Source: Camillea tinctor (lineage: Eukaryota; Ascomycota; Sordariomycetes; Xylariales; Xylariaceae). Taken from it: a DNA stretch of 64,000 nucleotides. The stretch is taken from the NCBI GenBank assembly GCA_022578605.1, contig MU394154.1, forward strand, positions 26,651-90,650, written 5' to 3'. A model generated the notes under the pieces. It did no database searches and was not told the DNA's origin. It was given only the letters and a program-made list of their open reading frames with translations. Positions within the stretch are counted from its first letter, which is position 1, and each line of letters opens with the position of its first letter. Below, piece by piece: positions 21,001 to 61,683 of this stretch. The position numbers were made by a program, and so were the translations under genes.

Positions 21001-23807
21001 GACCAAGAATGGTTGTAAGGTACCTGTGTACGTTGACTAACAAAGAGCCCGTGCATACGTTCTTATAACTTACATGATTGGATTTCGAATCACCTCATTG
21101 CCACATATGTCAATGTAGGACTGAGGCGTTCTATTAAGCTTGGCATGCTGGGCATTTCCAAATATCTAGAAAATACAAAGGGTGGGGAACAAGACAAAGA
21201 AAAAGTTTAGTAGGTTGGTAGTACCTACATGGTAAGCAACATACGACGGCTCGTGGTTGGAAGCATTAATACACCAGATACAGTGCACTAGGTAGGTACC
21301 TACCGGTCAAAATTCATTATAAGGAAGCTAGAAGAAAAAAGAAACAAGGACGGAAGGAAAAGAAAACGCCATTACCACGTGTACGCCAGGTATGCATCAG
21401 CTATGTATGTATGCATCAGTAGTAGTGCTGTGTAACAACGTGCTTTGTGTTAGATACTCAGGTACTTAGGTAGGTACCTATTATGTGCTTAATACTACCT
21501 GTGTTGTTGTCACCCCCCTCATCTCCCACTCCCACCCCTCCCGATCTTTCCAACAAGATCTTTCACCGTTTTAATCCTTGTGGTTTTCTCCAATATCAGG
21601 TAGGTAGAATATATATACTAATTCGATGACCCAAGATCTACCTAGTTCTCCGGCAATCCCCAGAATCTTGTGATGAGGCAGCAGAAACTTCTGGTGTAAG
21701 CCGGTAGGTAGGTACGCTAGGCATATTGGTAATCAAAACCACTCTCGAGGTTTCTTTTCCAATGAAAGATAAAAAGAAAACCCCCTATAATATAACTATC
21801 GAGTTCCGGTTAAACCGGGTTGGTTATTGCAGGGTGTAGTTCTGCTAGTTCAATAAATGCCAGTGCTACCAAAGGAACTGGTTAGATGGATCTTCATGCA
21901 CGTATGTATGTACGTATATACAATATTATACTCCGTACCTAGCACCCTATGTGGTTCTGTACATGTCCTGGCCGATTCGAATGTCTGACGCACATCAGAT
22001 CTTCCTTGGGTGAGCCTATATGCACTTGTCCCAGATCGGCTTTTAGTAATATCGTATACGCAGGTGGGTTTTGCAGTAAAGATAGGGTGCTCGTTCACTA
22101 GATATATAGCATTTATTTACCTACCTTTTCTTTCGTCCTAGGTGAGGTACATCATTCGCTTGAGGAACTCGAAATAGGCTAATATAGAGAAACATAAATA
22201 AGCGAGCCATATACTGATAACATAAAATGACCGATACGGGTAGCCTCCCAGAACTTACATTTTACTCTACATTTTTTTTATAAGCACGCGTGCAACATAA
22301 CACGACACTCACCTCGTACATACGCCGTAAATTTCCCAGCCACGGGTCTTTTTTTTGTTCCTTTTGCTCCTACAATTGAATCTATTCTATTAATAAGCAA
22401 TACATGCAATAAGCTACGCAGACAGGGTCAAATATGTGTATACTAGTCAAACAACCCCTTGCTTGTGTATGTGCCAGAGCGGTAAGCTTGACACCCGCGC
22501 GCAAGAATATCAGCCTCATACCCGGCATATAGTCCCCTATATATGTATGTGCTGAACTGTCTTATTTAAGTCGCACCTAAAACCTGCCCAATCAGCACTT
22601 GTGACTGCGACTCAGAACCGATGAAAGCACGAGTTTCTCGCCTACCTACGTAACATCCTATACCTACGACATTCATGCCCCTGGGGTAGGAAGGCAGGTA
22701 GCTAGTACATATCAGAGTGGGGAGTTTGGGTCATCCGTCATCTGACCTCATTTTCAGTTCAGGTTTAGATTTCCTAGACACACGAATCAGATTAGGAAGA
22801 CATGCAGGATGGCGCATAAGTTTCTAACTCAAGCCTAAGTATGAACTCAGCTTGCGATGGCTCGGAAAAAGGAGTATACGTATGTAAGTTGTTGGCTGGT
22901 TTTTTCTTCCTCCTCTCTTCCTCCGTTTGAGAGTAAAACCTTGTCCTTAGCAAGTCAAGTACAAATATGCATTATCTGAAAGATGCGCATGTAGGCAAGG
23001 TTGTCATCTCATGGGAGCTATTTGTAAACCATATTTAATTGAAACAGTAAGGCTTATTCCATACGCCATACGAATACGCATCAAAGTCCTAATCTACCTC
23101 GTCTTTCTTACATTTTTTTCTAACTCTCTAATGCCACCGGCATGTGGACACACTATAGTCATATTCAAAGTATTGCGAAATTTTTGAGTTATTTTTGCAA
23201 TCTTGTTCTTTCTTAATAACGAAGATGTTTATACAGTCTATAGTTGCTCACGTGTAATATAAAGCTAGATGACAATGTGTTTGATCCGTGTATAAACATT
23301 ACAGAACTTAATCTATATGTCAAATTGGCTCGTGTCCTTTTTATATGCATAAGCTCTATCCTAGGAGTGATATGCTAGATTATAGGTACATAGCAGTACG
23401 TACCCCATAAGAGAACAAGATGGGAAAGTAACAAAATGAGTGATAATTGTCATTTATGTCACCCGTTAAACTAACCTTACCTATAATCATTCCAGTTCTT
23501 GCTAATGCCCTCACAATAGTATCTATAGAAAGCTGATATTTAAGCATCAGGCTACTATTTATGGTTACCCCTCGCTGTTTGTAATTGCAAATAAAGTAAG
23601 AAACGACCATAACTTAGTTTAAAATCTCACGTAACAGTACTCATTACCAAAGGCACGGGTTCTTCGGACAAGGCCAAGCTATGGGGAAAAGCTCACTTTC
23701 CTACAAGCCTTTGTAAGCGAGTAAGATAAATAACACAAACGCCTGGAATTTATCCTCAAGTATCCGTACAGAAGGCAATAAGAAAGTGATCCTAGAGATT
23801 CATGAAG
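18099..23807. other. 5.7 kb gene-poor AT-rich DNA
   Basis: No supported gene. The region holds many TAGGTA/TACCTA words (for example 19163-19173, 21291-21302, 21467-21480 and 21703-21714). Short open frames scattered on both strands have no conserved motif and no plausible splicing, so I treat them as chance. Confidence 0.5.
18222..18687. promoter_or_regulatory. Candidate GATA-factor sites upstream of the ammonium transporter
   Basis: TGATAG at 18222-18227, TGATAAG on the minus strand at 18371-18377, and TGATAAG at 18681-18687 fit the HGATAR consensus of AreA/Nit2 nitrogen regulators. They lie about 125-590 bp upstream of the transporter start codon. GATA words are frequent by chance, so this is suggestive only. 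A CAA/CAG-rich run sits at about 18226-18267, probably in the leader. Confidence 0.35.
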
Positions 23808-23869
23808 TGTCACAGCTATACAAGAGCTAATTGCCAAAAGGCAATTGGCATAGGTCTTTTGTCTCCACA
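23808..23869 (+). mobile_element. Mini-element copy 1 (62 bp, TG...CA, TSD TGAAG)
   Basis: Begins TGTCACAGC and ends TCTCCACA. It is flanked by identical 5-bp duplications TGAAG at 23803-23807 and 23870-23874. A TATA-like box is followed by a perfect 10-bp hairpin (GCTAATTGCC / GGCAATTGGC allowing one G-T, loop AAAA). It belongs to the same family as 30506, 41152, 55319 and 61481. Confidence 0.85.
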
Positions 23870-23874
23870 TGAAG

Positions 23875-24180
23875 CATAGGTGGAAACTTTAAGGAGAGAT
23901 TAGGGAGGCTGGATATACACGGTAGTGTCAAGTTGCACTTTTTTCTTCATTACGCTGAATCCCTGTCTAAATCTGAATTGGCCCGTACGGTTGAAATGGA
24001 GCCAAGATGCTAAATTGTTCGAGGCTTCTGGCTGTGTAGCAGAGTCACTAATGGTATTTCTAACATCGGGACCTAAGGCACGATGATGGTGTTGGATATG
24101 TTGCGGGTACACTAACGCTTTGCTTCGAAGAATATACAGGTTGACGATTGTTGGTATCTCAATGTGCTGATCCTGCCATT
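23875..24180. other. Intergenic DNA between two insertions
   Basis: No gene seen. It contains the left target duplication CCATT (24176-24180) of the LTR-like element that starts at 24181. Confidence 0.5.
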
Positions 24181-24326
24181 TGTTGGAATATGGGGTTACC
24201 ACCCCACTATATGCTACTACACTACTACTACATGTACATATATATATCGGGCTTACGCCCTCCTCTAGACTCTCTCCTGGACTAATACACTTCATCCTTT
24301 CCCTCACCTATCGTCTTACTCCAATA
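24181..24326 (+). mobile_element. 146-bp solo-LTR-like element, copy 1 (TSD CCATT)
   Basis: Starts TGTTGGAATATGG and ends CTCCAATA, with imperfect terminal inverted repeats (TGTTGG / CCAATA). Exact 5-bp duplications CCATT flank it at 24176-24180 and 24327-24331. An internal ATATATAT box is followed by a GGGC-TTAC-GCCC hairpin. A near-identical copy lies at 46235-46379. Size, ends and target duplication fit a short solo LTR. Confidence 0.85.
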
Positions 24327-24331
24327 CCATT

Positions 24332-25701
24332 CGATACATTGCGTTCCCAAGGACTGACACATGATGCCTGGATTCAAAGGCCTGAGACTTCTGGAATTTG
24401 TATATCTTGATGTGTTATGTCTCCCTATCGTGTCCTATTGGATGTACTAATTATCACTAGGCGGGCTTCTGAGGCTGCGCAGGGGATCTCTTGATCGTGA
24501 AACACATTCCAGGCCTCCTGATGCACGAGGGGAATATTCGTGTAGATAATTATCCTGAAATCGATCTTCAACACCAGACTCTCATCAATTGCCATCGATA
24601 TTCAGGGCCGTGGGAGCTAGATTGTCACGCAGACTGCAAGGCGCTAGACAGTAGCCTTGGATTTATTTATTTTGTTGTTATAACCGAGATTCAACTGGTA
24701 GCTGCAGATGGCAAAACTTTGTTAGGTTGGTGTCGCGATTGTTTTTTCTGTTGTACTGTTGTATTTTCGCTGAACTCACACCCCTTCACCTCATGCAGGT
24801 ACCATTGACAGAACATGGCAAACGAATAGAGCCTGCCCTTGCGCCATCTGCCGCGCTTTCGCCAGCTGGGTGTCGGATTATTTGGTCAACTCATGAGACA
24901 GAGTTGGATTTGAGATTGTCGGCCTCGGGGCCAGTTCAGGTTCATGTCAATGTAGAGTTAGAGGGAGCCTGTCGTGGTGTCCAGGCCGATTGGAAGGTTA
25001 TACCAGATGACAGGTACGTGATACGTCTGTTGTGCATTATATCCCCCAACCACGGCCAAGGGAACATAAGAGAGTTGGATGTATATAAGCGGAGTAGATA
25101 GCCTGCCTAGATATAATAAATCCGTCACTGGAAAAAACCGTCGCTCTTGAATCCTGTTTTCCTAAAGACCCTTATGCTTCAAGCGTGCCCATCCAAACTA
25201 GACGTTCTTAAGGGCTATTATTCTATAGTGGATGATTTAGTTGAATGCGATTTAACTTGCTACGTATCTTATGAGCCTAATTAACATGTATAATATTACA
25301 TCTTAGGATACTTTAGTTGCCTACTTAGTGGGTATAGAGTTATATTTGACTTATAGTATTAGGCATTCTTTATTATAGTTTACCGCTTCAACTCCCAGTT
25401 TCCGGGATTGACCCTTGCCCGATTCACAGATTCCTATGCTTGTTACCATGCTGTGCAGAAGCAGCTTCATTTTGCTATATATCAGGGTCTTTTGAAATAT
25501 GGCAGTACATCTTATTACTTATGTCTTTCGTTCTCTCCTATACCGGATACTAAAGTATTGGTATATGGCCCGTAGTTAGGCAAGGACCAAATCGGCTCAT
25601 CTTCAACACGGCCATAACCCTGCATGGTAAGGTCTACTATTCTGTATGTAGGTCAGTGTTCCTAAAAAGCGCAGATATCTAAGTCCACGAGTGACCAAGA
25701 G
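24332..25701. other. Intergenic DNA with unassigned open segments
   Basis: Open segments at 24491-24808 and 24727-25101 have more GC than their surroundings and might be remnants of a gene, but I recognise no family. A short Cys-rich reading in another frame near 24835 does not settle it. The rest is AT-rich. Confidence 0.35.
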
Positions 25702-25825: not shown

Positions 25826-25925
25826 AAGAGCAAGGTTTATCTCTGGTTTCTCTTGAGCACAAACCGGCTAAGCATATTTGATGTTTTCAATAGGACGCAG
25901 AATAGCCATAAACGCAAAGTCGTAG

Positions 25926-29623: not shown

Positions 29624-30505
29624 TGTTGTTGAATTTATTGCTTAGATTCTTTCGGAATCCTCAAGTCGCCATGCATATTCCAGAGGCCACGGCAGTGGTT
29701 TGTTGTATATACCTGTTATAGGTTCTAAATACACAGATTTCTGTAGCGTTTCCTTATGTTTAGTATTGGGGTGTTGTTGAATAGAAGTTGAATAATATTC
29801 GTGCCTGTGAATTAAGAAACAGAAGAGACCCAGTGGTCTTGCTCCCTGTCGCCAATATCGTTGTCACTTTCCTCCTCATTCTCGGTCTACTCGTATGAAC
29901 CGATCTCTACTACGCAAGGGCCATCGCTGGTGCCCATAACTGAGAACCATCTTGGGTCTTCGGGTCGTATATCAAGCACCATACCAGGCCTAGCTACTAC
30001 TCTAATCAACGACAATAGATCACCAGGTAGTGGTCAGTTTACCAACCGCGCTTCTCGGTAAGACCGATACGTATGCGAAGTCACACCAAACCGGCCATCT
30101 TTTCCATCTGAGGCCATGTATTTTATATCACTCGAAGTAAAAACCTAAAGGATGTATGCTTTCACGCGATAGGAATAGTCGGAAAACGCTGTGAGCATAG
30201 TGTCAGCCATTTCGGAAACCTCCTTTAACCGGTCCTTGCTGGAATCGGAAAATCTAGAAGTTTTCTCGAGTTGACCTGACGAGCGCGCCTACATAGCTTA
30301 CTGTAGTGTGAATTCTTGGCCCCTAAAGATCGGGGCCTTCTCTTGAAGCCCTGTCTGGTCGGGCCTTCTCTTGAAGCCCTGTCTGGTCGGGCCCCAAAAA
30401 GGCCAGCCGTATCTATTACCAGGCTGTGCCGATTACGCCATGTATCAAATTTTTCAAGAAGGCGTGTACGCATAGGGCCAGCACTTCCTGCTGGCCGTGG
30501 GAAAG
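29624..30505. other. Intergenic DNA with a 28-bp tandem duplication
   Basis: No supported gene. A 28-bp unit starting GGGCCTTCTCTTGAAG occurs twice in tandem at 30333-30360 and 30361-30388. Short open frames across it are not convincing. Confidence 0.5.
30333..30388. repeat. 28-bp tandem duplication, two copies
   Basis: Two identical 28-base units directly adjacent, more GC-rich than their surroundings. Confidence 0.85.
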
Positions 30506-30567
30506 TGTCACGGCTATATAAGAGCTAATTGTCAAAAGACAATTGGCATATGTCTTTTGTCTCCACA
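30506..30567 (+). mobile_element. Mini-element copy 2 (62 bp, TSD GAAAG)
   Basis: Starts TGTCACGGCTATATAAGAGC and ends TCTCCACA. Exact 5-bp duplications GAAAG lie at 30501-30505 and 30568-30572. The TATATAA box precedes the hairpin GCTAATTGTC / GACAATTGGC. It is the closest relative of copy 1, and most differences between them fall in paired stem positions. Confidence 0.88.
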
Positions 30568-30852
30568 GAAAGGCCTCAACTTCAATTTCTCTCAGAGCGG
30601 TAATCCTCTGGGTAAATCTTCAAGCGATTTCGCCTCTTGAAGTTAAAGTTAACGGGAAAGTGATGAAGAAAAAGAGGCAGAATACTATATAGAAAAGGGA
30701 AAAAAGGGAAAGAAAAAAAGAAGAGAAGAATTGTAATAATTATGTATTGAGTACTTAGGTACCTATGTTGATATTCTTTCTGGCAGGGGCGCATTGGCCT
30801 AACCCCTATTCCAATACCCGTCATATTTGTAACGCTGAATCGAGCGCCCGCG

Positions 30853-30944
<92 letters not shown>

Positions 30945-35412: not shown

Positions 35413-37132
35413 CTATGGTCTTATCGAATTTACTTGATCTACGCTTACCCGGTCATTGTAGTGACCTGCATTTGCGTTTCTTACTTCCCATTCCAGCTCC
35501 CTCAACGCCGCTGCCTCAGAAAATTCGAAAAGCAGGTTCCTACATACATCGGAAACAGCAAAGCTTGCTGCTAAGGCTCCAGCGATGGCGAGAAGAAAAC
35601 GGGTCCCGCCAAATTTACCAATTACCCAAACACCTGCTAACGATCCCATGAGCACGATTCCCGCAACCCCTAGTCTGGCTTTTCGCCACCAAGCTCGTTT
35701 CTGTCGCATCAATTTGTAGTCCCTTAGAATATGGAGTATCTCCTCTAGGAGTCCATCTGGATCGACCACACCGTTCGACTCCTCTAGTTTCGACGTAACA
35801 TCTACTGAAGCTCTTAATGTCTTGTAGAGACCGGAAGCTCCATGGAATGTACTTTTATCCCCGGTAGAGATGCTGGAACCAGAGCAGCTGGGATCAGATA
35901 ATTCCAATGGCAGGGTCTGCAAGTTTCTCTGCTGCCTTTGCTCGAAGACAAGAGTAACCTCGACGCTTAGATGATCGCTCAACGAGTAGCCCAGGACTGG
36001 GTGTCGGTCAATCATACCCACTTTGGCTGCTTTTACTGTCCATAAACCATCATCTTGAGTGAAACCGACTGTATTCTCTATCTTGTTCCAGCTTCTAAGC
36101 TTGTCCGCAGAAGGGTTTACCGCAGAATCATTATTGTCTTGGGGAGTGTGGTCTCGTGGTACAGCCACATTTGCTAGGACGTAATCGATGCGTATTGACT
36201 GAGAGTGGTCGAAATCTGATGGCGAAATTAATTGATCAGGACGTGTATCTCGCTGTTCCAGGTACCGGGCCCGCTGGCCCCGGGTCCACATCCAGGTGTT
36301 GTATGATGACCCATACGTGGCACCGTCCTGGATACTGGAGTCCGTTTTCTGCGTAGTAATCCTTCTTTCACCACTGCGAGATGACAGTTCGCGCTGGAGG
36401 GAGAACTGGAGCCACGTATCATGCATTTCGGGGACGAGATGCTTCACAATGCGACATGGAAGCGACGTTGGCTCGGAATTCAAATCACCAAGCGCAACAA
36501 CTAGAGCTCTACCGCGACGGCACTGCAACGCAAACCGGAGGAGCTTACCTAGCTCCCAAGCTTGGGCGATGCGGTGACATAGGTATTCATTACTGCCAGG
36601 ATAGGAAGCATGAATCTTTCGGTAACAGAGGACATTAGCGACGTCAGTTCAAAAGGCTACAATAATTGAGATCCAATGATATAGAAACACATAGATGACG
36701 TACATGCGTATTGAAAACATCAATTACATTATCTGACGCTTTGCCATACTGGATTCTGGCATAAGCAACGCCTTTTCCCACATACCAGTCACCATGGGTG
36801 AAAGCTGTCGGGGAACCGTTCAAGGGGTATCGGAAAAAGGAGGTTTCCACGATGGGCCAACGAGATAGAATAGCTAGCCCTGCTCCAAAAGGCGCCGAAT
36901 AGTAAAGTTTGGCATATGGCAAGACGCTACGTGTTTCCTGATGGATACGTTTAAAATCATGCCTCGAGAAACATTCCTGTAGGCCAACTATATGCGGCAT
37001 CGGGTAGGCTTTCGTAATGTGTCGCCCAATTTCCGCTAGACGGTTCGGCCGTTCCGGGCATATATATGGGATGCCCCAGCAATTGAGTGTAAGAATATTG
37101 ACTTGTGATGGAAGGCCATCGATATCTGCCAT
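35413..37132 (-). CDS. ISC1: Inositol phosphosphingolipid phospholipase C (ISC1/neutral sphingomyelinase-like)
   Basis: Two minus-strand exons, 37132-36704 and 36615-35413, join in phase (GTACGT donor, CGAAAG acceptor) to 543 residues. The N-terminus carries ILTLNCWGIPY, the endonuclease/exonuclease/phosphatase start with its metal-site Asn. IVGLQECF holds the catalytic Glu, and VVALGDLNSEPTS holds the GDxN block. SDHLSVEVTL holds the final Asp-His pair. Two hydrophobic spans close to the C-terminus (around LGVAGIVLMGSLAGVWVIG and FLLAIAGALAASFAV) match the double membrane anchor of Isc1. The enzyme cleaves inositol phosphosphingolipids to ceramide at ER and mitochondrial membranes in yeast. 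The reading frame is complete. Confidence 0.92.
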
Positions 37133-40100
37133 TTTGAGGAATATATGCAGATGCTTGTCGGCTTTGGTGTTTGATGTTTAAGTTGAGTTGAAAGTTGGAA
37201 CACCTCAATCTTGCACACTGCCCAACATTAGATTTTCCGCAAGAATCCTACCATGATACGAATTATGAAAGCTTTAGATCAAAAATAAAATAAATGAAAG
37301 GAACATAGTAACGTGCTGGTCAGGATATGAGGTGTAGGATCTAGATAGGAAGTTGGGCGCGCACCCGGCATACAGCCGCACCCAAGACAACGGCCATGAC
37401 GCTACTTATGGCACGTGACTATCAATCATTGAGCGGCTGAGCCGACTTATGCCTATGATAGCGCCATGGGCGCTAGGCACCGGCTTGGCAAGGAAGGAAG
37501 GCTAGATGAGATAAATATAGGAAGATATAGCTTCCTATCGTCATTTTAATCTTTATTTTTTAAGCCTGTAGTAATTTGTAGAAATAGATTACTTGGTTTG
37601 TTTTAAAAATTTTATGCTATACTTAGGTCTACATAAAACAAGACTAAGTTCAATGAAACTAACTCCCACAAGAATAAACACTTAATGGGATTTGGATTCG
37701 AGTTGAAGATGGTGTATATTGTGTGAACTGCACTCGAATATCACCATCTGATACTGTTCCTGTTTTTCAGTATAGCTAGTCAACGCAACTCGTTATTGGA
37801 ATTTAGCTATCATACTACGTAGCCATAGAAAATGACCATCATGTATAGAGGTGTAGGCTAGGTTCTTTTAAAAAATAATGTATTGATTACCTAAGCACTT
37901 GGTTCCTTGTGAGTTAGTGGTTAGTGTTACCTAGCCTACCTGGGCAGGCAGTATGTATTGAATTAAACACGGGTGGCTTTGAAATCTTCATATCCTTCTG
38001 TTGGGATAAGCCAGTTAGCGCCCGCTGGCCTCGTAGGTTGGTGATCGCCACTAGTAGGTTAAAAAAAATAAGTAAAATCTTATTATGATAACGTAACATA
38101 CTTTAAAGAATTTGCATTGAAAAAAAAATTTGGAATAAAGTATAAATATATTGTTTATCATGTCTGTTATGATATATTATGGTATCAACCATTAACCTTT
38201 GCTTTCTTTTTCCCTTCCCTTTGGGCCTTACTGCATTGTGCTCACATATATCACCCTACTCAAAGCTTCTTGGTTGCCTCTTGCACCTTCCATTATTCGT
38301 AATTTAATAGGTTTCCACTATCCGTTCATGCCAGCTTGTAACCTGTCCTCCCCCTTGTTCTCTTTCACTTTTGAATTCCTATAGTGGTCATCTTCAGTCC
38401 TCACCCCTATGTTTCCTTCCTAAGTGTTGACCTATTCTTCCCCTATCTAGGTTCAGAAAAGTTGGACGCATCCTCTCCCACCCTTGACTCTCTGTCAATG
38501 AAGCATTTGTGACATTCGCGAACGCCAGATGGTATGTCTTTTCCTTTTTTCGCATTGACACAGTTTACAGCGTCATTATTGCGGACCTTTGAACACCGCG
38601 ACACATGAGTCGGGGAATAGGAATTATTTCCACACACACAAGTGTAAACGTTCATATCGTATGTACACATTTTGATTTTTAGACAACCAAGGGTGTGCTG
38701 TGAGGTGTATTCGGTATGTTTATATGGTATGGGAGCTTTAAACCTTAAGGGGTCTAAGCAAGAGTGGTAATAGTAGCGAATTTGAAGTAGTGTTGGCTGA
38801 ATGATTCATTGTTAGTCTATGTAGACTGCAATACGGAGACCTTGCAAACTCACCAGGGAGAACAAATTATGCAAGATTTATGTAGTGAGTAGATAGGTAA
38901 TGTGAAAATAATTGATACGGTGGTGTGACTTTTGAAAAGCTGCGATGGATGAAAAAAAAAAAGCGAGGTTTTCTTTGGTCCAAAGCAACAGTATTTATAA
39001 AAGCCACCATCAATGCCTAACTGTAGAGCCGACGTTTCTCAATTATGCAATGCCCTTAAGACATTACATCAGTTAGCCCAATACAAATAATAGTTATGAC
39101 TAGGATGTAAATTCGCCGGTCACCAGAAAGGTTGTACAATGGTTCATTGCATCCATACTGAGACAATTTGCTTGATACTACTAATGGCACCCCAGGTGAA
39201 TAAACCACTAAAATAGACAAATATAAATATTTTTTTGTCCGATATAAAGCTAGGTGTGTAGGGAGTCTTGACTTGTAATTCTGGCAGTGAGTCTAAAAAA
39301 TAAATAGGAGCGGAAGTATTTTTGGATACAAAGCATAGTGGTGTTGTTTGATTGCTTTATACTTACATAAGTATAAAGCAATATTTGTCTAGTTTGATGG
39401 TACTAAATTGATTTTCCAACTGGCATCACATTCACTTCTTAGCATCTGTACTTACTTTACTTACGTCATCAAGTTAGCAAACACCATGCCCTACTACAGT
39501 TTCAGATTATATTCCCAGTGTAGTAGTCAGGCTACTTACCCCTTGACACCTTGAGTAGAAAAATTTCTTTGTTCAAAGTATAACATCAACTAGGTGCTAC
39601 ATCCCAGCTAGGGAGGTAACTACCGTTATTGTGAGAATCTTTTAGTCACTTGGTACACAGTTGGTTACCCAACATTAGCTGTAACACTAAGGCCCTATCG
39701 GGGATTTGTGGTAACAACACATAAGCAAGTAAAATGAGCTACATATAGGAAGCAGGAAATCCAAACTAATCTACGTTAGCCTTTAGCAATGTAAATACTG
39801 AAAACGCTTTATCCTCCAGGTGGGCTTGAGGTAACCGGCCAGAGTATCTATCGGGAATCAAAGTTTTTATCACGCGGCATCTGGCAAAGGCTTAGGTAAC
39901 TATACTGTCCTTCCGCGACTGCTTTTAGTACTGTTACTTGTCCACGAAATTCTCTCCTTGCTCACTTACTAAGAATCTACGTATTGCCATCTATCATATG
40001 ATTTTGCATGCTACCCTCGACAAATATTTTCTAGCTTCGCCATTATAGTTACTTATAGGTATGGAATATTCAAATCGTCAGATGTGTTATTATTACTAAT

Positions 40101-40920
40101 AAACTACCCATGAAAGGGCGATGAATGATTCCTAATCAGTCGTCATTGAAGCTGGTAATCATGTGTCACAGACTTCGCGATAAGACAAAAAGATGTGACT
40201 ACAGGGATGATGTTACGACTAACGGTTGAGGTTTATGTATCAATAGTATGAAAGGCAGGTTCGTAAGGATAAGTCCCATACAAAGTATGCTTAGATTGAT
40301 CACTGGCTATTCTAGCCATAAGGAAATAAATGAGTGTATATATAGAAAAGGGGCCGCGCTTCGCTGATGGCGGCTAGTGGGTCTATATCGCCGATGTCAC
40401 ATGACTGACGAGGTGGTCCGTGACAGATAACTGCGTAGGGATGATATATGTTATTATGGTATGTCAGGGGTTAGGAAGGAGCAAAGAAGGTTCCTGTATA
40501 GGTATAGGTGACCGTAACATCTGTAGTTGTAGCATAGTTCATCGCACAATGTATTGATTAACTTAGCACTTGCTTGGTACCTCGTGACATGGGATTACTG
40601 GTATGTCACATGTGTTGGTAAGTTTGCCATAAGGTGTATTAGTTGTATGTAGGAGAGAAGATGGCAGGCCTTAAGAGCCTACCAGTTTATGTTTATGGGG
40701 CATGGACCACTCACTTTAACAACATATGCGCTTGTTATTTCTGATATAACTGCCTTTTCTATTTTTCTTTCCTTTTTTCTTTTTTAAAATTACAGTCTTC
40801 AATTTAATTATGGGTCTATGTGGGAACTAATCTTCATAACTACCAAAAACGATGACCTATATTTATACATAAATTTATAACCTATCTAATGAGTTACCTT
40901 AATTTGGACCTCACTTTGGG
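37133..40920. other. 3.8 kb AT-rich intergenic DNA
   Basis: The first few hundred bases are presumably the promoter of the phospholipase gene. The rest is AT-rich with no supported gene, RNA or repeat family. Short frames at 38117-38670 have no motif. Confidence 0.5.
37412..37417. promoter_or_regulatory. CACGTG E-box upstream of the ISC1-like gene
   Basis: A palindromic CACGTG within GGCACGTGAC lies about 280 bp upstream of the phospholipase start codon. bHLH factors bind this core, but a single site is weak evidence. Confidence 0.25.
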
Positions 40921-40932
40921 GGTTTTTTTTTC

Positions 40933-40963
<31 letters not shown>

Positions 40964-41081
40964 GGGCCGGCAAATAATAAAAACTTGCAAGTGGTTTATT
41001 GCCAAATAAATTTTCAAAATTTACAAAGACAATTAAAATATTATTTTTTTACCCAAACCAAACCAAAAAANNNNNNNNNNG

Positions 41082-41126
<45 letters not shown>

Positions 41127-41217
41127 CCGGCAACTATTAAACACTTGCATCTGTTGTAGTGCCATATATATGAGCTAATTGTCAAAGGACAATTAGCATA
41201 TGCTTTTGTTCGCCACA
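40921..41217. other. Assembly gap 2 with homopolymers and degraded duplicate flanks
   Basis: 24 G (40943-40966), 10 N (41071-41080) and 43 C (41082-41124) mark the gap. The segment 40967-41062 (CCGGCAAATAATAAAAACTT...) is an error-rich version of 41125-41214 (CCGGCAACTATTAAACACTT...), running right through mini-element copy 3. The same locus therefore seems to be written twice, once badly. Confidence 0.75.
41152..41217 (+). mobile_element. Mini-element copy 3 (66 bp, TSD GCATC)
   Basis: Starts TGTTGTAGTGCC and ends TTCGCCACA. Exact 5-bp duplications GCATC lie at 41147-41151 and 41218-41222. It contains CATATATATG and a perfect 10-bp stem GCTAATTGTC / GACAATTAGC with loop AAAG. A corrupted duplicate lies across the assembly gap. 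Confidence 0.85.
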
Positions 41218-41346
41218 GCATCCGAATCTCGTGATGGGTATACATGAGGTTGATTTATATAGGTAGGTAACGGCACAGCTTACGCTACCAGCGGTGCAGG
41301 TTACTCATATACAGAAAAAAAATATCCACTTGCCCATAACCTCTGT

Positions 41347-41760
41347 TTAGATTCCATGGTCATGAATTCGCACTTCTATATCAACACCTTGCCTGATTCC
41401 TAGCGTCTCTGCCAAGTTACATGCCAATGCTTCACTAACTACCTTTGTGGCAGCTGTTATTCTGCGGCGTGTGAAAAACTGACGAGGAATTTCGCTACGG
41501 TATATACTGCAACTAGAGATAATCCGGTCCGTGGGAATCCCATATCGCCCAAAAATGGAATCTTGCTTACTATTAGGTCCTACGGTAGCGTATATCGCGG
41601 CGCTAATGTGTTGTATAACTTGAATGGCCATTTGACCCGTGACGACCGCAGCCGGGTGTACATGTACTGTTTCTCTAAGCTTTACACGCACTACCTATAG
41701 CATAGAATGCATGGCAAGCATTTTTGGAATTGGTATTTATTGCTGCTTCTCAGCCGAAAT
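41347..41760 (-). pseudogene. Highly reducing polyketide synthase scrap: ER piece joined to ACP piece
   Basis: The minus-strand frame 41691-41347 begins with a degenerate enoylreductase cofactor segment: HPAAVVTGQMAIQVIQH in place of HAAAGGVGQAAIQ, then AAIYATVG and YGIPTDRI. It then passes abruptly to ATKVVSEALACNLAETLGI ... IHDHG, which resembles the first helix and the approach to the active Ser of a fungal PKS acyl carrier domain. The frame stops just before the DSL motif. In an intact HR-PKS these parts are separated by the rest of ER and by KR, so a large internal deletion must have joined them. Weak ER-like residues continue upstream to about 41760. No KS, AT or DH remains. Confidence 0.6.
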
Positions 41761-43982
41761 TAACGCCATCAGGTATTTAGCGATGCTTCGAAAGTTGCAG
41801 CTGGTGAACATCAAGATGCTTCTTGTTAAGGGGTAATATGCCTGTATTCAAAAACTAGAATAATTGTTTTAGAATGGCCGTGCTAGATCCACCTTTCCAT
41901 TTTGCGAGGGGATCTCCAGCTCTTTATATAGACGGGTAGCTTAGTTCTTCGCCTATAAGATCTTTTAGCCGTTAGCGCGTATTTCAATATTCTAAATATA
42001 CAAAGCATAAGTGTCGACGCCCGACGCCAACCTCCTTAGATGTGTTGGACCTATTATTCATTCTTCTAGTCCTAACCCCTCACTCGCCTCCATTCCTGCA
42101 TGTTAGCATGTTGCTTAGTCGTTGGATATATGTGGACCCGCAGATCGGGGTATCCACATCGTAACACTTCTCGTTATAATACTGGCTGCTCTAGTGCCAA
42201 CTTCAAAGTCACTTTCAATCAAGGCAAATGTGTGACAAGGGATAATAGCAGGGAACATTAGAGTCATATTCAACTGATAATTCTCTTGTGGTCTCAAGGA
42301 GTCTTAAAGGTCTAAGTTCTCCTGGATCCCATGTCGAGAATTTTGCTCCTATTTATACACATACATTCTGGCCTAAAGCACCTATCCATTATGCACGTTG
42401 GTTATTCATGCATTCTTCATGACCAGTACAAGAGTGACCAATACAGAGTATCATATTTACTAACAAGCCTTGACAGTGTCCACGTATGACAAAATGAGTC
42501 TAGGACTCTAGGCGTACCATAATTCCGGGTACCTCATAACCGACATTCCGGTCACTGAGCGACCTTAATGGAACCGAGACATTTTTTAAATTCACTCTGG
42601 CACATGAAGTCCGGATCCCAATTTCATCCTGCATCAATGCTTCTTGTTCCTAGCCTACACTCTAGACGAAATGGGTTGCATTTAGAAGCCTCGGAGAACC
42701 TATGGCTAGGTCCAACTGTATCACCATTTCATTTTTTCCCCCGAACTTACTTTCTCGTACTGTGCGCTGGTTGACCTTACGACCCAGGGCTTGCGATATC
42801 AGTGGCCGTTGAACGAATAAATTACCTTCGTCGCCTTCCCTTATTTTTGGTATCCTCGTGATCCAAGGTCGGGAGCTTCTTACTCAGCTTTATAATAAGC
42901 CCTGTACAACTCTCATACGGATTTGGTATTGTTCTCAAGCCAGGTCGGTTAGCTTCGTAGAGCTCCTGTCAGAGCTAACCACACGTGGGATATCGTTAAT
43001 CACAAGCTGGATAATTGTTACGATGGACCATGAAGTACCTACTGCATGCGGTTGGAAAGTCCTGTATTGATGAAATACCTGGGTTATTTGTCTTGTAGGC
43101 TATGGAATCAAAGATAGGTCGGTGTGCTTACCATGTGTAATGTTACGATCCACGTATATGTGGAGTCGCCGGAAACGCAATAAATGGTATACCGTTTCAG
43201 CATGCAGTTATTGGGCTAATCATTCCTAGATAAGGAATGTAACCGTAGCCAACGTAGTTAGCGTAGTTATGAAGCTTCAACTTCTTTACCACGCATCTTT
43301 GTTAACTACGCAAGTTAAGTGTATAAAGTTAGCGTAAGATCTTCTATAGTTACTTATTTTTAGCTATTAGTTTAAGGCTTTATTTATTCTTGAAAATCAA
43401 TAGCAAGAGTCCCCTAAACCATTCTAAAAAGCGTATATTTTAAATATCTTAAACCAATCTCGCCTCATTACATACCTTAAACTCAAGACAACCTGGCACG
43501 TGACCTACCTAGACCTACACCTAAGAAGGCTCATCACATGTAAGATTACTAGTTTGACGTAGTGTAACCGTTGCATTGTTTTTCGATACATACTCTATAA
43601 GCTTTTAAAAACCAGGGATATATTATACGGAAGTACAAAACCATGCACATTATTCTAAATGTTGCGTTGCTAAGAGTTGTTGGTTTGTGGTATGTGGCAG
43701 TGCACCGTGATAGATAACCGTATGGATCAAATGTCTTACATCATTGTTGCTAACGAAGGGCTGTTCATGTTACGAAAAAGGGGGGTTTATGCATAAGCTA
43801 CCTATTTATAACCCATGTAACTACTATATATGCTTGTAAATTATACAAAGTATATGTATTCATAGATGTGACAACTTCCACTTAAAGATATGGGCAATAT
43901 TAATTAGCACTTAACCCTTCTTGAGTTTCTTGAGGCACAGAAAGTTTCCTTCTATACTTACCTCTTGCAAGCACAGCAGACT
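41761..43982. other. AT-rich intergenic DNA, possible unrecognised relics
   Basis: Short frames at 42568-43070 have no family motif. Nothing else is supported. Confidence 0.45.
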
Positions 43983-54422: not shown

Positions 54423-57400
54423 ATGTTCAGGACTACCGAACGGCTCTGTCCAAATGTCCTTAAACAGCAGCTATCTAGGGCTAGGCTGTTTGCCACCGTC
54501 GTCGGTGTCGATGGGCATTGTCAGCACTTGACTTTCAAAGACATCGAAAATGTGTCCAATAGAGCGGCTTGGTTCCTCGCCCAAAACTTACAGTCCGATA
54601 AGTTCTTCTATATGGGCCCAAACGATATCCGATATTTTGTGTGGGTCCTGGGAGCTATGAAGACCAGCAAGTGTGTCAGTTGTTTCTGGTCACCTATCGT
54701 TGGCGTATCAACAGGCTCATCAATCTACAGGTTGTTTTCCCTTCGCCAGGAAACTCTATTCCTGCTAATATAGGTCTATTTCAGAAAGTAGGCGCGACAT
54801 CCCTTTTGTATTCCCCTGAGGTTACTACAATGCTTTCGCCTCTTCTGGAAGCCACTGAAGCTACGATCAAGCCACTCGTAACCCCAGGGTATGGCGAACT
54901 TCTGGGTTCGGAAGCCGTGCAACCATACCCTTTCCAGGGCACTTTCGATGAGCTACAGGAGACACCATTCATGGGTCTCCATACCTCTGGGACGTCAGGA
55001 CACCCCAAACCAGTTTACTGGAACCATCTTGCTGCCTCAACTCTACCATCGTTTCTGGATCCAGAGATTCAGGCCATGGGCCCTAAAGGTCCAAACGTAC
55101 TGCGAGAACTCCTCCACAACTCGATTATCCTTGTACTATTTCCTTTGTTTCATGTAAGAAACAAACACCACTCAGGCTTCTTATTTAAGTCACTCAGTTT
55201 CTGATATGCGCTTATAGTTTGGCGGTATTGGTCCAACGTTGGCTAGTCTTCATTGCATGAACACACTTGTTTTCCCTGCGCCTGGAACCAGACCTACGCC
55301 TACAAACGTTACTGCTATTGTAAAGCTAAAAAGCAAATGCTAATAGCTTTTTGACTATTAGCTCATATATAGTCCGTGACAGCTATGCTTCGATATGCCA
55401 GGGCAAGTAAATCCAAAAGTTCATTTTCACCCGTTTAGTGTGTCTTGGGTGTCATTTTTCTTCGGGGTAGATAGCCGCCCCTAATACATACCCCATTGTT
55501 CTTACTAAAAGTAGTAACTAATTACTGACTCTTTTAATTTAAGTACACGGCAGGTTTCATGCGTCCCATGATATCGGAAGCTATGGTCGATCACGCCCCT
55601 GGCTTAGAAGCTCTTAGTCAACTTGAACACGTAGGATACGCCGGCGGGACAGTAAACGCAACGCGCGGCAAGGAGCTAGCGAAGCATATACGACACTTTT
55701 TCTCTATCATGGCAATTACCGAGGGCGGAGCGTCTGATCTGATTTCGTGTAGGGATAGTTCCTATTGGAATGCTTTCAAATTCGTTAATCTCGGCCAGAT
55801 TATGGAAGAAATAGCCCCTGGATTTTATGAATTGGTGTTTCCCCGAACTGAACAGATTAACCGCGCTAGGTAATGCTTTTTTCCACACCCACCCTCATCT
55901 CCAAACTGAGTACCGAACTTCGGATCTGTTTTCCCCTGTTGAAGGGGAAAGCAACTGGTGGATATATCGTGGCAGAACGGATAATTGGGTGAGACTGGCT
56001 AATGGCCTAAAAATCGATCTAACAGACATAGAAGACACTATTAGCTCCCATTCCGATATCCACCGAGCGCTAGTTGCAGGGTCATCACTTTTTCAACTAT
56101 GCCTCCTCCTCGAACTCAAACAACCACCTAGCAATGACCAAGAGCGCAAAGAGGCCCTCGAGAAAATATGGCCAATTATCTAAGAGGCTAATAAAGGTGT
56201 GCCGAAAATAGCGCGCATACCAAAGGGGCTGGTCTTGTTTACAACCCAGAAGAAGCCCTTTACTCGAGCCAGCAAAGGAACGATTCAACGTCTTCTCACT
56301 GTTACAGATTATTCTCCAGAAATTGAAGAATTGTACGCTGCTGGCGAAGAAGAACTTCTTACTGGTGGGCTATCACCTCTAGAATCTTCTAAGCCTCACG
56401 ACTTGATACCCCTGTTGGAAGCCATCTTTTCACAGACGCTCGATGACAAAAACAGCAACATAGATGCAAACGAGAACCTTTTATCTCGTGGTATTGACTC
56501 CTTAGGAGTCTCCGTAGTCTTGGCACGCTTGAAAGCGTTTCTACAAAAGCACAACATTGGCAACGACAATCTCCATCTTATCAGAAACAAGCTCATATAT
56601 ACAGAACTCACTATTAATCGCATGGCAAAAGCGCTCTCCGCAGTACTGTCTGACTCCGAAACCACTGTGGAAAACACAAGTCAGACTCAGCAGAAGGCAT
56701 TGGATCAGCTGTTGGAGACATACGAAAACCAACTAATAACTCTTGAGGGAGGCGACGTAATTTCGATTGATCAATCTACACAATTGGAAGAAATTATTGT
56801 GCTCACAGGGTCAACGGGTTCTCTAGGATCATATATTCTATCAACGCTGCTTACTAGATCAAACGTGCGGAAGGTGTTCTGTCTCAACCGGAGTCCAGAC
56901 GCGGCAGAGAGGCAGCAGGCTTCATTCCGGTCTCGAGGTCTACCAGACTTACCAGTGGATGATAAACGAGTTGTGTTTCTTCATACAACACTAAGTGAAC
57001 CAAAATTAGGGTTATCAGACGACGAATATGCTGTCCTCATTAATGAGGCCACATCGATTGTTCATAACGCATTCTCTGTCAACTTTCTTCTCAGCATTGA
57101 ATCATTCGAACCTCAATTTCAAGCATTGATCAATCTTCTCAAACTAGCCGCCAACGGCCAGAAGAAGCCGGCAATGCTGTTCATGTCTTATGTCCGCAGG
57201 AATCCCTGTCACAGAAGACCGCTATGTGGTACTAGAAGCAGTGCTGAGTAAAGACCAAGCCACGGATATACTTCGCCAAGGATATGCTCAGGCGAAGTAC
57301 TTGTGCGAAAGATTGCTGGAGACCTATGCTTTGACAGCGAAGGGTAAGACGGCTATCCTTCGAGTCGGCCAGGTCTGTGGGCCTCTTTCGGGAACAGGAA

Positions 57401-57870
57401 TCTGGAACGTGTGGGAATGGGCGCCTTCGCTTGTTCTGAGCTCTAAATTCCTCGGCATTGCTCCGAGGTCAATCGGTAGTCTTGGGATCGATTGGGTTCC
57501 TGTCGACAAACTGGGGTCCATAGTCTCGGAACTCCTCTTTACCACCTCTATAAGAGACAGCGACCATTTTGCGGTGTACAATGTTGTCAGCCACATAACA
57601 ACTCTGTGGGAGGAGCTTCTCCCGGTCCTTCAGAAAGTTGCCTTAGAAACTGTGCCGGCTGAAGAATGGATTCGACGTCTAGAGCAGAGCGAGGAGGGTG
57701 CAGGTGGTTACTTGATTGATCAGAACCCAGCGATCAAGCTGACCGACTTTTACAAACAAACTATGCTACGTGACAGAACTCCAGTTAGAATCAAAATGGA
57801 CAACTTACTTCGGGCGAGCGAGACGGCCACCACTTTACCTCCAATTAAAGGTGAACATCTGACACGCTAG
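54423..57870 (+). pseudogene. NRPS-like adenylation-thiolation-reductase gene, disrupted
   Basis: The adenylation part runs from 54423: exon 54423-54674, then 54731-55153 with MGLHTSGTSGHPKP (A3 core), then 55218 onward. A carrier domain follows with LLSRGIDSLGVSV (about 56490-56520), its Ser ready for phosphopantetheine. A thioester reductase then begins VLTGSTGSLGSYIL and keeps YAQAK, the YxxxK catalytic pair. Such enzymes activate an acid, load it and release it as aldehyde or alcohol. This copy is broken by a 63-bp mini-element at 55319-55381 inside an exon, a register change near 55866, an in-frame TAA at 56180-56182 (after IWPII), and a second register change near 57190. A GC-AG intron (55403-55543) is otherwise well formed. 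Confidence 0.88.
55319..55381 (-). mobile_element. Mini-element copy 4 (63 bp, TSD GCTAT), inside the NRPS-like gene
   Basis: In opposite orientation to copies 1-3. On the plus strand it runs from TGTAAAGC to CCGTGACA. Exact 5-bp duplications GCTAT lie at 55314-55318 and 55382-55386. Its hairpin stem is GCTAATAG / CTATTAGC in element orientation, with paired changes relative to the others. Insertion plus duplication adds 68 bases, which shifts the host frame; removing one duplication and the element restores adjacency of a Thr-Ala-Met reading. Confidence 0.88.
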
Positions 57871-57953
57871 ATGCGAGGCTGGGGTCTGTAAGGGAATCTC
57901 TTACTTAGCTTGGGGCAATTTCACGCGGTTTGGATAGTCTGACGGTGTGGCGG

Positions 57954-58092
57954 TGTTCCGCCATACACTAAGCCAGGGATTGGCTGGAGAGTAACTACAT
58001 AATACGGAATTGGGATCCAATGACCACTCGGTCATTGGGAGAATCTTTTGGTCTCATGGTATGATGGTGTTGCCCAATACACTGTCGTAACA
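57954..58092 (+). mobile_element. 139-bp solo-LTR-like element, copy 2 (no target duplication)
   Basis: From about the middle to CGTAACA at 58092 it matches 25702-25825 almost base for base, including the ATGACC-ACTC-GGTCAT hairpin. The left end reads TGTTCCG with a longer spacer. No 5-bp duplication is seen (GGCGG versus CGTAA), so it may be a recombinant or older copy. It begins 83 bp after the stop of the NRPS-like gene. Confidence 0.75.
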
Positions 58093-58318
58093 CGTAATAA
58101 CTTGCAGCGTATTCTCTAAATTGATGTTATCGTCCAACATGGTGATGTATTCTGATAGGGGTTGTAGTAGAATAAGTAAAAAATGGAATTGATGAATATT
58201 TAATACATAAAGACCACGCACCCGAAGTAACCCAAGGTTTAGTCAGCACTCATTTTAGGCCAGGTTCAATACTCAATTGTTGCCAACAAACCTTTAGGTT
58301 GAAAGCTTGCTCGAGTAG

Positions 58319-58600
58319 TTATGTATCTTCTGACGTAATGAGTAAATATTTAACTAGTCTCGACGGCGTAGTGAAGGTGAAGCCAAGTTCCTGGACAATA
58401 TCCTTCATGTCGAAGTGGTGTGTAAGTAACGAACTGACATCTAAAACTCCAGCTTCTCTCATGTCAATATCAATCGGTACTTTTATCCATAAAAGGGCGC
58501 TAGGTATATGTCTGATGCCCACTATGCCACTGTACCCGGAAACCATCTCCTCCAGCCCATCTACCATGTACGAATGTAAATGTCCATACGTATAACCCAC
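58319..58600 (-). pseudogene. Possible C-terminal scrap of a medium-chain dehydrogenase
   Basis: 93 residues with no good start (it opens at a GTG). The segment DVSSLLTHHFDMKDIVQ loosely resembles the VDVKPLITHRFPL... C-terminus of zinc-type alcohol/polyol dehydrogenases. It lies eight bases downstream of the SDR stop on the same strand. The match is short, and I cannot exclude a chance frame. Confidence 0.25.
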
Positions 58601-58607
58601 ACATTTA

Positions 58608-59641
58608 TTAAAGATGGGCTGTTAATGTAATGCCTGAGTCGATTACTAGTCCAGTCCCGTTGATATAGCTTGCTGATGGACTGCATAGAAATATAATGTA
58701 ATCAGCAACCTCTTCTGTTACAGCTGGTCGACGGAGCGGAGTAGCCGTGTTGACGATGGTTTCAAGTCCTGGCACACGTTGAAAGCTAGCCTGCATCATA
58801 TTGGTGTCTGTAAAGGCAGGGCAAACTGCATTAACCCGTATATGATGCTTCATACAATCCATAGCTGTTCAGAATTTGGAAATTAACAATATTCAAAGAG
58901 AATGAGGAGGAGGCGGGGTGACTTACCTGCAGACTTCGTGATCCCCATGACAGCGTGCTTTGAGGCAACATAGGGGGCCATCCCTGGCGGGGCTATAAAG
59001 GAATTGATGGAGGCGAGATTCACGATCGAACCTCTCCCTATACTACGTTCACCGTGGCGAGAGCTGGTGTATGTCACGGGTTCCTGGCTAGACATGACCT
59101 TGGTAACTGCGCGAACACATAGCATGGTGCCTTTGATGTTGATTTCCATGGTCTTGCAAAACACATCGACATCAATATTGGGTGCTAGGGCGGGGGAGAT
59201 ATTCCCGATCTTGAGTGAGCAAGATATTAGCTCGTGTGGTTGCTGGCGAGAGAGATGATGCGGGCAGGGAATTCCAACTCACCCCAGCACTGTTCACGCT
59301 ATAATCAATACGCCCAAATTCTTTTACAGTGGTGTTCACCATGGCCTGAACGCTATCTTCCGAAGCGATGTCGACCTTGAGGGCGATGGGGCGGTAGTTG
59401 GGATTCTTGGCGCATAGTATGCTCTTCTCAGCAGCATCCTGGGCGCCTTGTTCATTTGCGTCCGCAAAGACAACGCCCGTAACGCCAGCCTCGGCAAACG
59501 CAAACGCCGTTTCCTTGCCGATACCGCTTGCAGCCTACAGTTATTCGTTAGCCTCGTTGTGCTGCAAGATGAGTAGAGCGGCGGCACACGTACCCCGGTC
59601 ACAAGAGCGATACCACCATCGAGAGAGATTTTAGAAAACAT
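58608..59641 (-). CDS. Short-chain dehydrogenase/reductase
   Basis: Four minus-strand exons, 59641-59594, 59534-59283, 59209-58927 and 58864-58608, join in phase to 279 residues. The cofactor loop ALVTGAASGIGKE is split by intron 1. DIASEDS matches the adenine-ring Asp position, YSVNSAG is the NNAG motif with one change, and VNLASINS carries the catalytic Ser. YVASKHAV holds the YxxxK pair, and the C-terminus ends GLVIDSGITLTAHL. Classical SDRs oxidise or reduce alcohols and ketones with NAD(P); residues after strand 2 (ADANE) suggest NAD preference. The ATG at 59641 is preferred over an upstream one at 59674 because it gives the normal family N-terminus. No lesion is seen. Confidence 0.9.
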
Positions 59642-60093
59642 TTCAGTGCGTATAGGTAATGTAGATATTATCAAGAAAGAAATAGATTAACAGAGTGGCT
59701 AGTAAACTGATACTTGGACGAATAAGTAAACACTGGGAAGAAAATAGGGGAAGGATCGTGTTTTTGTTAGTTTCCCTGTTGCCTTTGTTAAAATAGGTAT
59801 GGTTCATTGGTTCTTATGCTGTGTAACCCTGCAGTTGGAGCAACGAACAAATCATTGGCGTAACCTTTATAGTAGGATTACGATTTTTGAAACGGGCAGC
59901 TGCATTTACATACGACCTAAAATACTACTTGCCCTGCCGCCGCACCGCCTCTATACGTTGATATTCTACTGTATATGCATAACAGGTAATATGTATAAAT
60001 CGTGATGTAATTTCAGTGCTCTTTTTACAGAACCGCTTCTTCGTCTGCACTTACGGTTATTTTTTCCAACCCTGTTTTTAATCAGCAACGAAA

Positions 60094-61292
60094 ATGCGTT
60101 TCCTCTGCCTTCATGGGATGGGAACGAATGGCAAGGTGAGTTGGTTGTTTCACGAGTCTCACACAGCCTTGTCAGGGTACCATCTTAAGCCCCGCTACAT
60201 TCGCTAACATGCCGACCAACGAAAAGATATTCGGAATGCAGACAGGTAATTACTACATTACGTATCCTTGAATGCGATTTCAGAACCCATCGGGAGCTGA
60301 TTTATGGGTCCGCCCCTCACTGTCACCCGTGAACACATTCTATGCTGTTGCAGAAAACTAACAAGCGAGGTCTTTTTTCAAGCCGCTATTCGATACGGTC
60401 TTGGTAGTCAGCATACCTATGAGTTCATTGATGGCCCTCTACCAGCGCCTATGGCTCCCGGTAAGTATATGATCACTGCCTTCTTAGTAGTCACACCAAG
60501 AAATAAATTAAAACATCCCCCTCCGCTCCTGGCCCCACCCTCCTCGCCTTCAACCCTTACCTAGCTGATTATGGAAAGATGTTGCAGGCAGGAACATCCT
60601 TGTTCCGCCTCCCATAGCCTTGTAAGGCGATCTCTCCACCCACAACTAGGTTGCAGGCATTATACATTTTTAATACATCATCCATTCACTTCGCTGTCCT
60701 TAGCCTGCAATAAGATATGGTGACCCAATACTGTGATACAAGTATTGATAGTTGTTTAGGCATCGAAGCAATTGCCGAACCAGATGAACAGTGTTTTCAG
60801 TACACTCAGAACGGGTCTCTAGACTCTGGGATCAAAGCTTTACATGATCTCGAGCGACTAGTGGATGAAGAAGGTCCATTTGATGGTGTGATGGCTTTCT
60901 CACAGGGAGCAGGCTTAGTAGCCTCATTCATAGTACATAAGATGCAGTGCAACCCCAATGAGGAGCGGATAAGGCCTGTCTTCCGTTGTGCCATTTTCTT
61001 CTGTGGCAGTGTTCCAGAGGATCCTGCAGCCTCCGTCAATGGCAACCAGCGCGCCCTAAGCTTCGAAGCTGATGGGGAACTGATCGGAATTCCCACTGCT
61101 CACATATGGGGTGCTAATGACACTTTGTATCCCACCTTTGGCCCAGTATTGAGCAAGCTATGCCGCTCGGATTTAAAAGACAAGTTCATTCATGATGGGG
61201 GCCATGAGATACCGGGTCCAAGAAACCAGCAAGCTGTCATGAAGGCTACTCAGGTTATTAACAGAGCCATCGAGAGGGCCAAGGCACTTTAG
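60094..61292 (+). CDS. FSH-family serine hydrolase (LovG-like) with a 19-nt microexon
   Basis: Four exons, 60094-60135, 60227-60245, 60383-60460 and 60760-61292, join in phase to 223 residues. Exon 1 gives MRFLCLHGMGTNGK, the microexon IFGMQT, and exon 3 AAIRYGLGSQHTYEFIDG, as in other FSH proteins. The nucleophile lies in GVMAFSQGAG (first Gly of GxSxG replaced by Ala), the Asp in GANDTLYP and the His in HDGGHEIPG. Relatives such as LovG release polyketide chains from reducing PKSs; others are general esterases. The family is a common partner of fungal clusters, which fits the PKS scrap at 41 kb and the neighbours here. Intron 3 (299 bp) is long for this window. No lesion is seen. Confidence 0.88.
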
Positions 61293-61480
61293 TATTCTTG
61301 AGTATGGTTTCAGAGAAGAAAGTTTCAATTTCTGATATAGTGATACGAACAGGGATTCTTGTCAACCTGGGCAATGCCGGGGTTCTCTAATATTGATTAC
61401 CATATCACTAGTTTCTAGTAAACCTTTGTCTGTGGTAATACAGGTTACAAGAAATTTCTGGAGAGTCTAAATTATCATGC
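61293..61480. other. Intergenic region between FSH hydrolase and mini-element copy 5
   Basis: Short 3' flank; no feature recognised. Confidence 0.5.
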
Positions 61481-61541
61481 TGTCGCGTACCATATATATG
61501 GGCTAATTGCTGAAGGGCAATTAGCGTTTGCTTTTGCCATA
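61481..61541 (+). mobile_element. Mini-element copy 5 (61 bp, imperfect TSD CATGC/CATGG)
   Basis: Starts TGTCGCGTACCATATATATG and ends TTTTGCCATA. The flanks CATGC (61476-61480) and CATGG (61542-61546) match at four of five positions. The stem GCTAATTGC / GCAATTAGC is perfect. It is more diverged than the other copies and may be older. Confidence 0.7.
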
Positions 61542-61683
61542 CATGGATAATGTCAGATGTGAGGAATAAGTGACATCCGTAATATAGTCTAAGTTCCTCG
61601 CACAAAAACATATTGACTACCTACTATTTAGAATTTGCTTAGTTCCTCGTAACGCAAGGCTTGACCTGCCCATAAAGCATATA

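Follow-up and report, generated by a model that had tools for sequence, protein, structure and literature searches.

The stretch of DNA analysed here, referred to as the window, comprises 64,000 nucleotides of the xylariaceous fungus Camillea tinctor (assembly GCA_022578605.1, contig MU394154.1, positions 26,651 to 90,650 of the forward strand). It harbours five copies of a unit of about 62 bp that carries a stem-loop and is flanked by short direct repeats of the target. Such units recur throughout the genome, and one complete element bounded by two of them suggests that they are very probably solo long terminal repeats (LTRs) of a miniature, non-autonomous LTR retrotransposon.

Results

All five copies announced by the original prediction are present in the window. 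Two of them belong to subfamily A, are 62 bp long and lie on the plus strand. The first occupies 23808-23869 (23803..23874 including its flanking repeats), with TGAAG at 23803-23807 and 23870-23874 and the stem-loop at 23826-23849, and the second occupies 30506-30567 (30501..30572), with GAAAG at 30501-30505 and 30568-30572 and the stem-loop at 30524-30547. The third copy (L061), which is 66 bp long and of a B-like subfamily, is likewise found on the plus strand at 41152-41217 (41147..41222), with GCATC at 41147-41151 and 41218-41222 and the stem-loop at 41174-41197; about 25 bases upstream of it, a few N and then a long poly-C stretch (41071-41125) probably represent an assembly gap or a sequencing artefact. 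The fourth copy, a 63-bp member of subfamily C, lies on the minus strand at 55319-55381 (55314..55386), between GCTAT at 55314-55318 and 55382-55386, with the stem-loop at 55339-55362. The fifth, a member of subfamily D with an ATA end, is located on the plus strand at 61481-61541 (61476..61546), with its stem-loop at 61502-61525. Its 5' end was miscalled by the extraction script and its duplication was determined by eye: CATGC (61476-61480) and CATGG (61542-61546) agree at four of five positions. Hence, the four perfect 5-bp duplications and the imperfect fifth one are as predicted. A pattern describing the hairpin matches the window ten times (five places on both strands), whereas 100 shuffled sequences average 0.51 matches and never exceed 3. 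The open reading frames of the window encode HET, Fungal_trans_2 and MUG190-like domains, pointing to a filamentous fungus. For one window protein the closest named relatives, among the best 8000 candidates by common words that were scored, are two proteins of Biscogniauxia (Xylariales) with 77% identity.

To determine the size of the family, the 44.7-Mb genome (154 contigs) was searched. A degenerate 31-nt pattern with up to three mismatches matches 111 places, 100 of which were listed, compared to none for the reversed control. A pattern of the subfamily represented by the copy at 55319 (subfamily C) matches 50 places, again with none for the control, and nine of these 50 lie beyond the mismatch limit of the 31-nt pattern. 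Counted from the matches listed, the union of both patterns amounts to at least 120 places, a total in which more diverged copies are uncounted. With a 62-bp copy as genome query, 40 matches were obtained (40 scored among 68 candidates), and a profile search in the flanks of the first 30 loci yielded six further, mostly diverged copies.

Both ends could be called for 78 distinct extracted copies, a non-random sample made up of the best matches and of chosen subfamily members; 27 core-like matches in which one or both ends could not be called, some of them duplicates or false cores, were left out. The called length is 59-67 bp in 77 of these copies and 70 bp in one. The predicted size of 61-66 bp and the predicted TG...CA ends thus hold in outline, although the range is wider (59-70 bp) and the end is ATA in one subfamily and frequently AGA in another. 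A perfect 5-bp duplication is found at 57 of the 78 copies, a match at four of five positions at nine and more than one mismatch at 12. Hereby, the 78 include both LTRs of the complete element described below, which should have no duplication of their own, as well as copies whose 5' ends were miscalled (certainly the window copy at 61481 and L113, probably L025 and L122). Over 2000 rounds of re-pairing the flanks, perfect duplications average 0.87 and never exceed 6; shifted offsets give 0-1 in 78, and scoring the duplication as 3, 4, 6 or 7 bp instead leaves 3, 2, 1 and 1 copies, respectively. The 57 perfect duplications comprise 54 different sequences. Copies throughout the genome therefore bear target duplications, whose absence the original prediction had named as grounds for refutation.

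Insertion occurred at AT-rich targets, with 72% A+T in the duplication and 64% across the 20 flanking bases. There is no sign of tRNA gene targeting, since the 41 insertion loci scanned (about 3 kb each) contain two tRNA genes, both in L005. Three copies from three subfamilies lie inside 1.6 kb (G000:C8:857208, 857886 and 858720), a possible insertion hot spot, and elsewhere (L021:1501-1634) two same-strand copies are found 10 bp apart, the second of them diverged and the first with its own perfect duplication.

The copies fall into subfamilies that differ at their termini. Subfamily A starts with TGTCACGGC or TGTCACGGAC and ends with CTCCACA, subfamily B starts with TGTTGCAGTGCC and often ends with TGACA or TGAGA, subfamily C starts with TGTCACGGAC and ends with AGCTTTACA, and subfamily D starts with TGTCGCGTAC and ends with GCCATA. 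Members of subfamily D (e.g. 61481-61541 in the window and L112-L118) show a TGT start and an ATA instead of an ACA end, yet 5-bp duplications are present, so that subfamily D does not conserve the terminal CA.

Common to subfamilies A, B, C and D and to an intermediate type is a stem of ten pairs. We analysed it in 26 cores of 24 nt out of 28 distinct cores called, excluding two 25-nt cores and four copies without a called core. Within the stem, 95.8% of the cells are paired, compared to 8-48% in slid controls. Cells changed on both sides number 17 versus 7.1 in shuffles, and the covariation score is 0.261 versus 0.156; none of 500 shuffles reaches either value. Neither the pairs changed on both sides (3 versus 2.8) nor the pair types (7 versus 6.9) are more numerous than in the shuffles. 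Clear compensated changes are seen at pair 7 (U-A to A-U) and pair 9 (C-G to U-A), which may reflect few events inherited by many copies, while pair 10 is unpaired in seven of the 26 cores. Some paired changes between subfamilies preserve the stem-loop. Single-sequence folding recovers the stem in the tested A, B-like and D copies (z = -2.7, -2.3 and -1.6; the D copy minus its last two bases); for the C copy a different fold beats it. No known structured RNA was matched in the window at the Rfam gathering cut-offs, and none at E ≤ 10 around the copy at 30506.

The original prediction had proposed looking for copies in direct orientation that enclose a primer-binding site, and such a pair indeed exists. 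The complete element (L087) is located on the minus strand at C14:446515-446895 and spans 381 bp (63 + 255 + 63). Its two C-type LTRs of 63 bp are identical, lie on the same strand 318 bp apart and are letter-identical to the fourth copy of the window. TCTCC is present at both outer sides of the element, with no duplication at the inner flanks. Read in LTR orientation, the interior starts directly at the 5' LTR with a stretch in which 22 of 24 bases pair with nt 15-38 of this genome's tRNA-Met(CAT), the first 14 of them unbroken. We take this tRNA to be the initiator, based on A1-U72, the GGG/CCC anticodon stem and the AUCGAAA T-loop. Allowing up to three mismatches, a scan of the genome for this primer site returned the C14 element and four other places, all four of them tRNA-Met genes, compared to none in the control. 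At the opposite end the interior closes with AACTTGGGGGGTG, a G-run directly before the 3' LTR; the candidate polypurine tract GGGGGGTG adjoins the 3' LTR in one copy and is interrupted by a T.

The interior, which lacks any TTTT run, also contains an A box, TAGCTCAGTGG, at position 49 and a B box, GGTTCGATTCC, at position 125, 76 bases apart from start to start. These tRNA-like boxes (L087, 280-392, minus strand) may be used by Pol III. Rfam matches of L087 stay under the cut-off for Vault (17.1 bits, cut-off 34) as well as for tRNA (16.7 bits in the interior, cut-off 29), ARAGORN with default settings reports no tRNA in the window or in L087, and a tRNA-Cys-like fold with an insert, drawn by ARAGORN in L087 at a lowered threshold, was not counted as a tRNA. 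Judged by its length of 255 bp, and not by a protein search, the interior is too short for a reverse transcriptase (RT) or an integrase. Among 116 distinct listed places, same-strand pairs less than 1 kb apart occur twice, namely at the complete element and on C8, where the two members belong to different subfamilies and one of them (L092) has its own perfect duplication.

Concerning potential helpers, integrase-domain matches occur at two places in the genome, the first exceeding the family cut-off and the other falling short of it, and both are part of Ty3/gypsy elements (L065-L068) on C14 near 679375-686917 and on C26 near 36661-43347. Their open frames encode 1200 and 1248 aa, and their terminal repeats align without a difference across 382 and 265 bp, the alignment overshooting each LTR by a few bases. 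They resemble the family in their 5-bp duplications (TCTAG and TGGAT) and TGT...ACA ends, and the 5' LTR on C26 starts with TGTCACGGACCA, as do several A-type copies, which suggests a compatible integrase end. In contrast to the complete element, their terminal repeats hold no 62-bp unit, which rules them out as its full-length form, and in the genome scan neither of them has a tRNA-Met primer site.

All 13 detected Copia RT matches (L074-L086) carry in-frame stops. At these loci the GC content is 7-16%, TpA/ApT 1.2-1.5 and (CpA+TpG)/(ApC+GpT) 0.27-0.62, which, by commonly used cut-offs, we take as a strong signature resembling repeat-induced point mutation (RIP). The same two indices amount to 0.92 and 1.12 for the window and to 1.25 and 1.21 for the complete element. 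Both are above the first cut-off and not below the second, so that the complete element is not clearly marked by RIP. The two single Ty3/gypsy elements with identical terminal repeats and long open frames thus stand beside 13 ruined Copia RT regions in the same genome. The piece beside one RVT_2 (Copia) locus revealed no convincing LTR pair, and a single primer-like match found with tolerance for RIP, in a region where 250-bp bins have 12-22% GC, has no recognisable LTR adjoining it. Anticodon-loop priming has been described for elements of the Copia superfamily, and fungal TRIMs (terminal-repeat retrotransposons in miniature) of the Helenus family with this primer type have been assigned Copia helpers (PMC10886601). 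Candidates for the helper are an unassembled or extinct Copia element or a gypsy integrase with borrowed priming.

Discussion

Direct LTRs, a primer site at the edge of one LTR, a G-run at the edge of the other, exact 5-bp duplications and the lack of a protein identify the C14 element as a probable TRIM, and its short interior and total length below 1,500 bp agree with the size of that class. If the C14 element is a TRIM, the 62-bp units are its solo LTRs. With the TG...CA-type ends and the TATA-like box also seen in the family, and with one complete copy next to solos bearing 54 different duplications, we consider it very probable (about 0.88), on sequence grounds, that the units represent solo LTRs derived from a non-autonomous LTR retrotransposon, namely a TRIM measuring about 381 bp whose LTRs are 59-67 bp long. 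The original prediction had left the choice between very short solo LTRs and a new non-autonomous class. Probable solo LTRs and a non-autonomous complete element were found; the kind of element is already known. Its remark that no such family had been described has to be revised, as published TRIMs and small LTR retrotransposons (SMARTs) have LTRs of 52 bp and 85 bp, and solo LTRs of about 80 bp have been reported as well (PMC4717578, PMC3281118). Hence the kind is known, while the family appears to be new: the literature titles and abstract openings searched contain no description of such a family in an ascomycete, which is weak evidence of absence given that Repbase and most subscription journals lie outside that search.

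In such a life cycle, RNA would be transcribed from the LTR and copied by a foreign RT, with the 5' half of the initiator tRNA-Met serving as primer, a mode of priming described for Drosophila Copia and Ty5. An integrase, likewise foreign, would then insert the DNA and thereby create the 5-bp duplications. As the short LTRs lie 255 bp from each other, recombination between them would delete the interior and leave a solo LTR, and small size may allow escape from the RIP-like mutation that ruined the detected Copia elements.

Several observations weigh against this interpretation. The family has one complete copy, none being found for subfamilies A, B or D, and the interior of that copy is single-copy in the genome. 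Autonomous elements with these LTRs or with a tRNA-Met primer site were not found in the genome; the search for full-length retrotransposons with these ends, proposed in the original prediction, thus yielded a sole complete copy that is itself non-autonomous. On C40 a B-type LTR is followed by GGTTATGAGCCC, a decayed form of the primer site of the C14 element that in itself supports the TRIM reading, and then by a diverged stretch, but about 1.5 kb of sequence revealed no 3' LTR, and the following 900 bases occur once in the genome and offer no repeated interior. A scan for the junction CTTTT + TTATGAGCCC gave three places versus two in the reversed control. Its evidence therefore lies not in this count but in the fact that two of the three places, the complete element on C14 and the B-type copy on C40, sit exactly at LTR ends of the family. 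Finally, the excess of solos is unlike FRetro129, where complete copies predominate (PMC3281118).

This excess is best illustrated by the 11 solos, all with perfect duplications, whose sequence matches the LTRs of the complete element letter for letter, giving a solo-to-complete ratio of 11:1. Either recombination between 63-bp repeats proceeds quickly in the fungus, or some of the solos arose by direct insertion; loss of interiors at solo sites during assembly is a third possibility. Direct insertion would mean that the 62-bp unit moves itself, as single-LTR DNA from aborted or stem-loop-primed reverse transcription that is inserted by a borrowed integrase, so that most solos were never complete. 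We know of no mechanism that produces such a unit. The 11 identical, perfectly duplicated solos speak for it, as does the expectation that 62-bp repeats recombine poorly; even FRetro129 with its 85-bp LTRs has more complete copies than solos, by 3.4:1 to 50:1 (PMC3281118). On the other hand, formation of solos from short LTRs has already been described (PMC3281118), and the complete element, which possesses a primer site, a G-run and a duplication of its own, provides all that the ordinary route requires. Self-movement of the unit thus seems improbable to us; if it were true, the unit would be among the smallest integrase-inserted retroelements and would thrive by staying far under the size at which RIP recognises a repeat.

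Still less probable is that the units are miniature inverted-repeat transposable elements, mobilised in cut-and-paste fashion by a Ginger2/TDD-type transposase that resembles a gypsy integrase. The AT-rich targets would fit, TDD-4 and TDD-5 also give 5-bp duplications and Ginger ends conform to TGTNR (PMC2836005). Those elements, however, have long inverted repeats and a transposase and are without a primer site or direct LTRs, whereas in the sole longer form found here the 63-bp ends are direct rather than inverted and are accompanied by a tRNA primer site and a G-run, and the only two integrase-domain matches of the genome sit in gypsy elements; this explanation was dropped. Introner-like mobile introns, to which the stem-loop, the CTAAT box and the pyrimidine-rich CACA end (CACAG where the duplication starts with G) might point, can practically be dismissed, because the base following the element is free (G in 25% of 57 copies), leaving no constant AG and hence no GT...AG ends at every insertion.

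As a probable solo-LTR-rich TRIM, the family has its closest counterparts in plants and in basidiomycetes. FRetro129 (292 bp, 85-bp LTRs; PMC3281118) and CcaRetroS9 (233 bp, 52-bp LTRs; PMC4717578), both plant TRIM/SMART elements, share with it very short LTRs, a non-coding interior, 5-bp duplications and the occurrence of complete copies together with short solos. They differ in that the host here is a fungus and nearly all copies found are solo, while FRetro129 is mostly complete. Helenus (TRIMp3) occurs in rust fungi and some Agaricomycetes, the fungal reports coming from Basidiomycota, and one of its rust families counts 529 LTRs versus 144 interiors (PMC10886601). Most of its fungal members likewise have a primer site at the tRNA anticodon loop, and a 5-bp duplication is shared. 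The tRNA-like sequence lies in the LTR of Helenus (PMC10886601), in contrast to the A and B boxes in the interior here, with no tRNA found in the LTR. What distinguishes the present family is, in order of strength, the excess of solos, near-identical young copies despite the RIP-like damage in the genome, and tRNA-like boxes in the interior instead of the LTR, the latter seen in one copy.

In conclusion, TRIMs with extremely short LTRs appear to be a class that extends to an ascomycete, and short insertions with a TATA-like box, as found here, are easily overlooked by annotation. The family offers two natural tests, i.e. whether direct repeats of 60 bp placed 255 bp apart can recombine enough to leave almost only solos, and whether tiny size shields a retroelement from RIP. 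The latter question arises from the contrast between 13 of 13 detected Copia RT regions with stops and 11 letter-identical solos of 63 bp in the same genome.

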